This document shows, piece after piece, positions 3,259 through 15,720 of a stretch of 50,655 bases of DNA. Within the stretch, counting starts at the first letter, position 1. Every line of letters starts with the position of its first letter. The notes below the pieces were generated by a model. The model saw only the letters and a list, made by a program, of their open reading frames with translations. It was not told the origin of the DNA and did not search any database. Location of the stretch: positions 1 to 50,655 of IMG/VR virus record IMGVR_UViG_3300007345_000058. One strand, given 5' to 3'. The stretch comes from a virus. The position numbers and the translations under genes are program-made.

Positions 3259-3687
3259 ATGGGCACTCGTTCTCGAATTGGTATTCAACTGAGTGATGAT
3301 TCTATTCTTTCTGTTTACTGCCACTGGGATGGTTATCCTTCTTTCAATGGCAAAGTTCTCCGCGAATTCTATGATACGAAGGAGAAAGTGACTCAACTTA
3401 TTAACGGTGGTAACATTAGTGCTCTCCACACTAATGCTGGTTGGCAGAATGAAACTCTTCCTGAAACTGGTCCTCTTTACTATACTTCCCGTGGAGAGAC
3501 TATTGATGAAAATGCACCTGAACTGAACAAAAATAAGAGTGAGTATCTCAAAACTGCAGATAATTGTGGTGAAGAGTATGCTTATCTCTTCACAAGTGCT
3601 GGGTGGACATGCTACAATACCCGCTCTTGGGATGAGAACTATATGAAAGAAGAAGAAATCCCTGCTGGTTCTATCAACGACAAATGA
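3259..3687 (+). CDS. Conserved-type hypothetical protein (MGTRSRIG N-terminus)
   Basis: A 142-residue soluble protein beginning MGTRSRIGIQLSDDSILSVY, then CHWDGYPSFNGKVLREFYDT. I associate this pattern with a family of unknown function found in phages and bacteria. The mixed alpha/beta content with conserved Trp and Tyr residues suggests a compact enzyme-like or binding fold, but no catalytic motif is clear. It follows about 100 bases of leader after the CP12 terminator and overlaps the next gene by four bases (ATGA). Confidence 0.7.
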   Translation: MGTRSRIGIQLSDDSILSVYCHWDGYPSFNGKVLREFYDTKEKVTQLINGGNISALHTNAGWQNETLPETGPLYYTSRGETIDENAPELNKNKSEYLKTADNCGEEYAYLFTSAGWTCYNTRSWDENYMKEEEIPAGSINDK

Positions 3688-11973: not shown

Positions 11974-12259
11974 TCAATACCCATCAAAATTTGAGCAGGC
12001 AAAGAGTCTAGTTAGTTTAGTACAGGATGCTATTGTTGATGTGATGAAAGGGGAGCAAGTCTTCTCTACAGATGAATTGAAAGAGCAAAGAATGGCAATT
12101 TGTAAGAGTTGCGATCAATACAATGAGAAACACAATCGCTGTATGAAATGTGGTTGTTTTCTTGATAAGAAAGTATCTCTCAGTTCTGCTCGCTGCCCCT
12201 TGGACAAATGGGATGGCTCCGAGACTGGAAGCGCCGATTTTTACAATCCTTTCAGTTAA
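11957..12259 (+). CDS. Zinc-ribbon protein (DUF6171-like), copy 2
   Basis: 100 residues from ATG 11957 (MKQQNNQYPSKFEQAKSLVS). EQRMAICKSCDQYNEKHN followed by RCMKCGCFLDKKVSL and RCPLDKW repeats the cysteine pattern of the upstream gene, so the pair is probably an old tandem duplication. This copy has lost the acidic tail. Its stop TAA at 12257-12259 overlaps, tail to tail, the stop of the endonuclease on the other strand. Confidence 0.7.
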   Translation: MKQQNNQYPSKFEQAKSLVSLVQDAIVDVMKGEQVFSTDELKEQRMAICKSCDQYNEKHNRCMKCGCFLDKKVSLSSARCPLDKWDGSETGSADFYNPFS

Positions 12260-13020
12260 CCATAATACCAATAAAAACCACGCCAACTATAACGACCTGG
12301 GTGCTTTAAACTTTTGGTGAGTCCTGTACCATGACCACCAGCACCTAGTTCTTTTACACATGTTGCTATACTTTCAAAGCGGGGACCTAGTCTCTCCGTT
12401 TTTTTGTGTATGCCAAATATAGACTTCTTCTTCGATTTATCTTCAAGGATGGTCCATTTATACCCATAACATTTGTAATTGTTTCGGGCACAAACTAGTA
12501 AATTTGAATTCTTTCTTGGATTACCTGTAATTTCTTCTGCCGCTTCTCTTACAGTATCCCATGTTTTTATTTCACCAGTTTCTATATTTTTCCCCTGTAT
12601 TTTAAGACCTGATTTCTTACCATCACCTCTATCTTCATCTTTAATTGTATACCATGTATTATAATGTTCCTTAAGTTCGGGCACATGTATTACATCGTCT
12701 TCGATTGATTCTTCATCTTCTTCCTCTTCAATCGTTTCTATTTCTAATGTATTGTATCCATGAATATGAGAGTTATAATGTAATATCCAATATTTCTGTT
12801 TTTCTTCTAGTTCATGATCATTACATTCATCCAATTCTTTAATGTTAAATGAACTTACATCGAATTGTCTGAATGCTTTGTGCAGGGGCAATGAGGACAT
12901 TCTTTTGGATTGATCGATGTGGTGCTTCCAGATTTTGTTCATTGGTAGTGTGGTTTCACCCACATACTTACAATCGTTCTTTTTATTTGTAATCAGGTAT
13001 ATAATGCCTCTTTGTGCCAT
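12256..13020 (-). CDS. GIY-YIG homing endonuclease-like protein
   Basis: 254 residues. The N-terminal GIY-YIG domain has GIIYLITN (5-12), KYVGET (18-23), an LPLHKAFRQF helix, a plausible catalytic Glu in ELEEKQKYWI (Glu72/73) and GYNTLE (88-93). The Arg usually found before W-x-x-H is missing: the segment reads NKIWKHHI. An acidic linker (98-110) is followed by two repeats resembling NUMOD-type DNA-binding modules (KNIETGEIKTWDTVREAAEE, about 144-163; RFESIATCVKELGAGGHG then KSLKHPGRYSWRG, about 214-248). It is a free-standing mobile endonuclease and the only supported minus-strand gene; it nicks or cuts DNA if active. Confidence 0.85.
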   Translation of the reverse strand: MAQRGIIYLITNKKNDCKYVGETTLPMNKIWKHHIDQSKRMSSLPLHKAFRQFDVSSFNIKELDECNDHELEEKQKYWILHYNSHIHGYNTLEIETIEEEEDEESIEDDVIHVPELKEHYNTWYTIKDEDRGDGKKSGLKIQGKNIETGEIKTWDTVREAAEEITGNPRKNSNLLVCARNNYKCYGYKWTILEDKSKKKSIFGIHKKTERLGPRFESIATCVKELGAGGHGTGLTKSLKHPGRYSWRGFYWYYG

Positions 13021-13938: not shown

Positions 13939-14023
13939 GGGAGTGTGGCGGAATCGGTAGACGCACCAGACTTAAAATCTGTTGAGCATTATGCTCGTGG
14001 GAGTTCAAGTCTCCCTACTCCTA
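13939..14023 (+). tRNA. tRNA-Leu (anticodon UAA)
   Basis: An 85-nt class II tRNA. The acceptor stem GGGAGTG pairs with TACTCCT, the D-arm has the leucine-type GCGGAATCGGTAGACGC, the anticodon loop CTTAAAA gives anticodon TAA, there is a long variable arm (TGAGCATTATGCTCG), and the T-arm has GTTCAAGTC. The discriminator is A and the 3' CCA is not encoded. It reads the TTA codon, frequent in the AT-rich structural genes. A consensus promoter precedes it. Confidence 0.95.
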
Positions 14024-14154: not shown

Positions 14155-14184
14155 AAAGAATATATGCCAATAGTTCTAGTGTCA

Positions 14185-14227
14185 CATAACCCCTTGCGGA
14201 TTCGTTCGTGAGGGGTTATGTTTGTTT
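14185..14227 (+). terminator. Second hairpin terminator
   Basis: CATAACCCCT (14185-14194) pairs perfectly with AGGGGTTATG (14211-14220), followed by TTTGTTT. With the preceding terminator it makes a double stop between the tRNA and the next gene unit. The loop of 16 bases is longer than usual. Confidence 0.7.
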
Positions 14228-14276: not shown

Positions 14277-14645
14277 ATGACCGCAATCAATTTTTTCCAC
14301 CTGGCACCCGCAATTGAGGTGCTGGAAAGTGTCACAATCTGGGGCGCACGAGTTTATGCCATCGGTTCCGAAATCTTCACAGTGACGGCAATACTTTGGT
14401 GCCTGAACTTTCTGGGCAACATGATACAAAAGACTTTTCAGTTTGGTTATGCTTTCGGCAAATTCTATCGCCGTTACGTGCATTCTCATCTGAAATCTTT
14501 CGTGGTTCGTGTCATCGCACTTGTAATCCTTCTGGGTCAGTTAACCTTTGAGGGGGCACAGTTTGTTATCACGAATCACCACGATATCATTGAGCGTGCT
14601 AATATTTTTCGTAACCGCGTTGGATCATACTTTGTGTATGGGTGA
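14277..14645 (+). CDS. Membrane protein of unknown function
   Basis: A 122-residue protein with two hydrophobic segments (EIFTVTAILWCLNFLGNMI, about 32-50; FVVRVIALVILLGQLTF, about 75-91) joined by a basic loop (FGKFYRRYVHSHLKS). This suggests a two-pass inner-membrane protein. Its last third carries one arm of a perfect 26-bp inverted repeat whose other arm spans the stop codon. No family recognised. It is an isolated unit: terminators before it, hairpins after it. Confidence 0.7.
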   Translation: MTAINFFHLAPAIEVLESVTIWGARVYAIGSEIFTVTAILWCLNFLGNMIQKTFQFGYAFGKFYRRYVHSHLKSFVVRVIALVILLGQLTFEGAQFVITNHHDIIERANIFRNRVGSYFVYG

Positions 14646-14666
14646 TTCGTGATAACAAACTGTGCC
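14555..14666 (+). repeat. Perfect 26-bp inverted repeat
   Basis: Arms at 14555-14580 (inside the membrane-protein gene) and 14641-14666 (across its stop codon) are exact reverse complements, separated by 60 bases. The last part of arm 2 (CTGTGCC, 14660-14666) can instead pair with GGCACAG at 14679-14685 as part of a nine-base stem (14660-14668 with 14677-14685). The two structures exclude each other. Confidence 0.9.
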
Positions 14667-14676
14667 ACATGTTCTA

Positions 14677-14718
14677 GTGGCACAGTCAATGAGCACAGTG
14701 CTCAAAATCGTGTATTGT
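14677..14718 (+). promoter_or_regulatory. Promoter module, copy A
   Basis: It starts with GTGGCACA and reaches ATCG after exactly 34 bases, then TG and the -10 TATTGT (14713-14718). It contains the palindrome GAGCACAGTGCTC (14691-14703) at the -35 position. It aligns without gaps to the modules at 15069 and 15721. Confidence 0.6.
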
Positions 14719-14741: not shown

Positions 14742-14876
14742 ATGTTTGACGAACTTTGGAGTGAGATTCAGGATGCCCCTGGTGAGATTTTCGATGTGAT
14801 CGAATACAAGGAAGAATGGGAGCAAGATGACAAGTTTGACGTAGAATCTTACATCAAAGGTAACACCGACTATTGA
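14742..14876 (+). CDS. Very small acidic protein
   Basis: A 44-residue protein from ATG 14742 (MFDELWSEIQDAPGEIFDVI), strongly acidic. The start is chosen because the in-frame sequence further upstream holds the hairpins and promoter module A. It ends three bases before the next ATG. Function unknown. Confidence 0.5.
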   Translation: MFDELWSEIQDAPGEIFDVIEYKEEWEQDDKFDVESYIKGNTDY

Positions 14877-15068: not shown

Positions 15069-15110
15069 GTGGCACACGAAATAGGCACAGCGCCCCAGAT
15101 CGTGTATTGT
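15069..15110 (+). promoter_or_regulatory. Promoter module, copy B
   Basis: GTGGCACAC, then GCCCCAGATCG ending at base 34, then TG and TATTGT (15105-15110). It shares 22 of 26 bases with module A over the segment ending in ATCGTGTATTGT. The ATG at 15117 follows the -10 so closely that the mRNA could be leaderless. Confidence 0.6.
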
Positions 15111-15650: not shown

Positions 15651-15663
15651 CACTAACCGTTCC

Positions 15664-15694
15664 GATTCTCAATATACATTTTTTATTGAGAATC
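15664..15694 (+). terminator. Hairpin with T-rich loop
   Basis: GATTCTCAAT (15664-15673) pairs perfectly with ATTGAGAATC (15685-15694) around an 11-base T-rich loop. It follows the three-gene unit and precedes promoter module C. The T run is in the loop, so it is an unusual terminator if it is one. Confidence 0.5.
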
Positions 15695-15720
15695 GCGGCC
15701 GCCTGTGTGCGGTCGGGGAA

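Follow-up and report, generated by a model that had tools for sequence, protein, structure and literature searches.

The locus and its cassette

The window, meaning the whole stretch of DNA analysed, is the 50.7-kb virus record IMGVR_UViG_3300007345_000058, which has T4-like cyanophage content and represents a virus of marine cyanobacteria. All of its DNA matches to named phages were to Synechococcus, Prochlorococcus or unspecified cyanophage records. The repeat described here sits among very small genes, 3' of a tRNA-Leu gene (Table 1), and the corresponding region in ACG-2014f, S-SKS1 and Sf-CH1b is likewise a series of hypothetical small genes. A putative GIY-YIG homing endonuclease gene is present on the minus strand at 12256-13020, about 0.9 kb ahead of the tRNA-Leu gene. 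A second recurring hairpin, CGATTCTCAATA-9-TATTGAGAATCG, was identified at 15663-15695; it was also found 3' of the gene in two other loci (L003 and L005), and lies at different junctions in related phages.

The protein encoded by the gene carrying the repeat has two hydrophobic segments by hydropathy, at about residues 26-50 and 67-98, and a Pfam search of the product returned no family. Homologues of the gene were present at 28 viral-contig loci, with weak matches in ACG-2014f phages.

Table 1. Coordinates of the features at the locus, numbered along the window.
Feature	Position	Strand	Description
tRNA-Leu	13939-14023		Upstream of the small-gene stretch holding the repeat
Small protein gene	14277-14645	+	122 aa ORF; phrog_3587 (E = 4e-11), function unknown
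Arm 1 (apparent derived copy)	14555-14580	+	Codons 93-102; AQFVITNH vs AQV(V/I)YNNR in relatives
Spacer	14581-14640	+	60 nt, coding; codons 103-109 (14583-14603) unusually diverged
Arm 2 (apparent source)	14641-14666	+	ORF end, stop codon and 3' untranslated leader of the downstream cassette
Small stem-loop	14660-14685	+	CTGTGCCAC-ATGTTCTA-GTGGCACAG; conserved element; -15.5 kcal/mol alone
Promoter-like cassette	14678-14718	+	TGGCACA (14678-14684), 28 nt, TATTGT (14713-14718)
Downstream small ORF	14742-14876	+	44 aa, putatively served by the cassette; weak phrog_30262

The nine-base-pair hairpin reported in the initial annotation is present, as CTGTGCCAC-8-GTGGCACAG (14660-14668 / 14677-14685). 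This small stem-loop is retained in six other loci (L004, L007, L018 and L030-L032), and is weaker in L009 and in the isolate S-T4. It leads into a promoter-like cassette, a second copy of which is present within the window at 15070-15110. A -10-like hexamer was found 28-31 nt after TGGCACA in 41 cases among 179 distinct sites, compared with approximately 1.6 per six-base bin at neighbouring spacings, and the distance between the two elements is tightly constrained across cyanophages. At 45 sites, TGCCA lies 8-13 nt 5' of TGGCACA, forming the small stem-loop. Cassette sites with TATTGT, TATACT or TATAAT precede many small genes, including those after both copies in the window and those in four further loci (L055, L056, L057 and L058). 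From these sequence patterns, TGGCACA with a -10-like box is likely to represent an early promoter architecture, often accompanied by an upstream GTGCCA-N10-TGGCAC stem-loop.

The cassette appears to be a cyanophage version of the promoter-early stem-loop (PeSL) cassettes known from T4-type phages (Arbiol 2010 and Comeau 2014, as relayed in PMC4503421). As the PeSL is outlined in that source, both comprise an intergenic stem-loop with a host-like, promoter-like sequence after it, placed between small genes, and in both the same cassette occurs behind unrelated genes (module shuffling), as in S-T4, where it follows an unrelated gene. The element described here differs from that outline in having its own sequence family, GTGCCA-N10-TGGCAC, with a putative -10-like box 28-31 nt on.

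The inverted repeat and its predicted RNA

The two arms are complementary at 26 of 26 positions, confirming the perfect repeat described in the initial annotation. This is the sole perfect inverted repeat of at least 16 bp in the window (spacer up to 300 nt). Ten Markov shuffles of the window produced none of that length, and the longest in 40 shuffles with a spacer of up to 500 nt was 17 bp; the assertion that the match is far beyond chance is thus upheld. The RNA folding z-score at the repeat was -6.5. Arm 1 lies inside the coding sequence, as had been noted from the sequence. Arm 2 opens at the last two bases of the final sense codon. The UGA stop (14643-14645) lies within it, and the coding sequence is therefore touched by both arms.

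The exact 26-mer was found in only two other records among the viral contigs, both belonging to the window's population; one matches the window at 99.93% identity over 12.2 kb and the other at 99.96% over 7.1 kb. Chimeric reads can produce inverted copies, and an assembly or amplification artefact was considered on that ground. However, three contigs whose sequences otherwise diverge by 0.04-0.07% share the repeat without a single difference, and it is therefore not the error of one assembly. Two of the three belong to separate IMG datasets, SNPs between the contigs are few, and the reading frame and length of the gene are kept; an artefact is extremely improbable.

The comparison of the arms among relatives, which had been proposed as a check, was carried out. 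The 3' part of the gene was present in nine relatives, including alleles at 84% and 67% protein identity and L030-L032, which have a different N-terminal half. In all nine the repeat was absent, with at best 10-15 of the 26 positions paired. A short GCACAG/CTGTGC seed was present in eight of the nine, L010 being the exception. Several relatives keep the small hairpin, whereas the long stem is confined to one population.

In the predicted RNA, the long stem had an energy of -46.2 kcal/mol and the small hairpin -15.5 kcal/mol, with pair probabilities of 0.999 and 0.0004, respectively. By this model the long stem is strong and would form without ribosomes. The two structures had been proposed as mutually exclusive folds. 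They do overlap, although they share only 7 nt (14660-14666), and full exclusivity does not hold: forcing the small hairpin to form still leaves 18 bp of the long stem paired, at -58.3 compared with -64.3 kcal/mol, so that the combined fold costs 6 kcal/mol. When the stems were enforced or blocked in the folding, holding arm 1 open allowed the small hairpin to form.

These values bear on whether the repeat is a functional structure at the 3' end of the mRNA, whose 26-bp stem would shield the transcript or end it, serve as an RNase III cleavage site, or form in turn with the 9-bp hairpin as part of a translation-coupled switch, in which ribosomes on arm 1 free arm 2 for the small hairpin. A very stable stem (-46.2 kcal/mol duplex; z-score -6.5) that includes the stop codon, the appearance of the small hairpin once arm 1 is held open, and the recurrence of stems of 17-27 bp near the gene in other phages are consistent with such a role. 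However, the stem is absent from relatives that have the gene, and its advantage of approximately 30 kcal/mol argues against a balanced switch. The terminator scan predicted one upstream terminator (14184-14221) and no intrinsic terminator at the repeat, and a U-run is absent 3' of either stem. The only Rfam matches were the tRNA and a miRNA hairpin that scored under threshold, and no family reached the gathering score at the repeat. A functional structure is accordingly improbable, although less so than an artefact. The switch reading of the initial annotation fails on the energy difference, the restriction of the long stem to one population and the lack of long pairing in relatives that have the gene, an observation that the annotation itself had named as refuting. 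A switch is unlikely, and the pair probabilities and the one-population stem do not support one with two comparable conserved folds.

The miRNA hairpin was mir-5880, which scored 39.6 bits against a gathering threshold of 97 on both strands; such a score is expected of any long hairpin, and the match was rejected. A 26-bp RNA duplex is a plausible RNase III substrate, and on the modelled fold the long stem may be cleaved as a by-product.

Origin of the two arms

Codons 94-102 of the window's gene differ from those of the relatives at a mean of 41% of bases (minimum 33%), compared with 10% among the relatives themselves and 11% between the window and relatives over codons 1-75. A conserved VVYNNRR is replaced by FVITNHH in the window's population, with the length unchanged, and distant homologues retain the Y and R that were replaced. 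Depending on the relative, arm 1 differs at 8 to 11 sites, and at all of these (8/8 to 11/11) the window's base matches the complement of arm 2. Circularity was avoided by substituting the arm 2 of L030 as the source, with which 7/8 to 9/11 of the changed sites match. This locus carries TGATTCGTGACAACAAACTGTGCC, one base off the window's arm 2 over 24 nt, together with an ordinary arm 1. The isolate S-T4 has GATAACAATATGTGCC / GATAACAATATGTGCCAC before the same stem-loop and promoter-like region, 3' of an unrelated gene. As L030 has arm 2 in near-identical form and S-T4 has part of it, the arm predates the repeat and belongs to the downstream cassette. The divergence, L030 and S-T4 agree, by sequence comparison, in identifying arm 1 as the derived copy and arm 2 as the pre-existing source.

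At one pair, 14580/14641, the derived base is in arm 2 (G, where relatives have C). The copying would thus not have been purely one-way, or the last pair was completed by a later change. The adjoining codons 103-109 are also diverged (35% compared with 12%), suggesting that the event was larger or repeated, or that another change came with it. No template for these codons was found; the best match lay in the downstream promoter region and was equalled in 50 of 300 shuffles. The closest allele has 84% protein identity, and no immediate ancestor or intermediate was present among the sequences found.

The divergence extending approximately 20 nt beyond arm 1, and the mosaic nature of these phages, could also suggest that codons 96-109 arrived by homologous recombination from an unsampled divergent allele, with arm 2 then homogenised from arm 1, or with the pairing arising by chance and being selected. 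A scan with a degenerate HHDIIER pattern returned the known population and five other contigs, as pattern matches only. However, arm 2 is present in L030, and partly in S-T4, without the window's arm 1, and chance pairing over 26 bp is excluded by the shuffles. Recombination is therefore quite unlikely, ranking below a functional structure.

The repeat is most probably (roughly 0.8) the scar of a short replicative template switch, or quasipalindrome homogenisation, from the intergenic stem-loop into the neighbouring gene. The derived arm is the reverse complement of a nearby pre-existing source, and a short seed repeat is shared by the relatives with the exception of L010. Before the event, the gene's ...GCA CAG... 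codons would have made an imperfect inverted repeat of 6-7 bp with CTGTGCC, the 5' strand of the stem-loop, approximately 100 nt away. With GCACAG at its end, a nascent strand would then either anneal to the stem-loop's CTGTGC on the opposite strand or fold back on itself, copy approximately 19 nt of the cassette leader and return to its own template. The reverse complement of arm 2 would thereby overwrite the end of the second hydrophobic segment with frame and length kept, and one event would yield both the 26-bp perfect repeat and the change from VVYNNR(R) to FVITNH(H). As the 3' strand of the hairpin is GTGGCACAG, arm 1 starts with the letters with which the small hairpin normally pairs. 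We infer the polymerase mechanism, the strand used and the occurrence of a single event. The option of an inverted duplication scar, raised in the initial annotation, stands as regards the inverted copy; no duplicate was added, since existing sequence was overwritten without a change in length. Only three nearly identical sequences carry the stem, so that nothing shows selection on it. Most likely the new stem has no selected function, although processing of the 3' end may be affected incidentally by the 26-bp RNA duplex.

Quasipalindrome mutagenesis was reportedly described in phage T4 and E. coli by Ripley and others. There too an imperfect inverted repeat is perfected during replication, whereas the present case is natural variation read by comparison, not a laboratory mutant. 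An E. coli case is among the material in PMC7202029. A template switch is an established source of perfect stems (Monttinen and Loytynoja 2022, PMC8794818); both those hairpins and this one involve a nearby reverse-complement copy giving a perfect stem, with clustered substitutions explained by the other arm. Here, in a cyanophage, the source is a non-coding stem-loop and the target a protein gene. In yeast coding DNA, short imperfect inverted repeats are homogenised, with clustered changes of up to five neighbouring amino acids (Abraham and Hazkani-Covo 2021, PMC8604942). In this virus, by comparison, about five to six residues changed, the arms are 60 nt apart, and the seed comes from a regulatory element.

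Long stems near the gene and their implications

Long perfect stems were also found near the gene elsewhere, with lengths of 21 bp (L005, L008 and L030 type), 27 bp and 17 bp (L016/L017) and 22 bp (L024), as well as a 24-bp stem 2.3 kb upstream of the gene in L011. Approximately 380 kb of seven contigs contained six repeats of at least 16 bp, five of them within about 1 kb of the gene; as two of the seven contigs share the same 21-bp stem, the independent count is below six. Upstream of the gene, L005 has a perfect stem whose counterparts in L004 and S-T4 are broken by internal loops. This clustering fits repeated homogenisation, and also selection for stems such as terminators.

The stems of 21-27 bp lie near the gene or its tRNA-Leu (L016 2393-2485, L011 915-1020, L024 2553-2624 and L005 710-791), and some of their arms are palindromic. 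The 17-bp perfect repeat of L016/L017 (3205-3221 / 3274-3290) is inside the same gene at another place. Its sisters are paired at 15/17 (L011) and 13/17 (L024) positions, with a compensatory G-C to C-G change.

Tentatively, the mobile stem-loop and promoter cassettes of cyanophage plastic regions could repeatedly donate inverted copies of their own sequence to the small genes and stems beside them, although we consider this doubtful. If it were true, regulatory cassettes would drive changes in proteins as well as the extension of long perfect hairpins, and the 17-bp repeat of L016/L017 and the 21-27 bp stems near the gene would be further products.

The locus offers a clean natural viral case in which the source, target and direction of a probable template switch can all be read by comparison. 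It shows that clustered changes of conserved residues, like a perfect long hairpin, can be left behind by a copying event and need not reflect a regulatory switch or adaptation. The findings suggest that the intergenic stem-loop cassettes of T4-like phages may be mutagenic for neighbouring genes.
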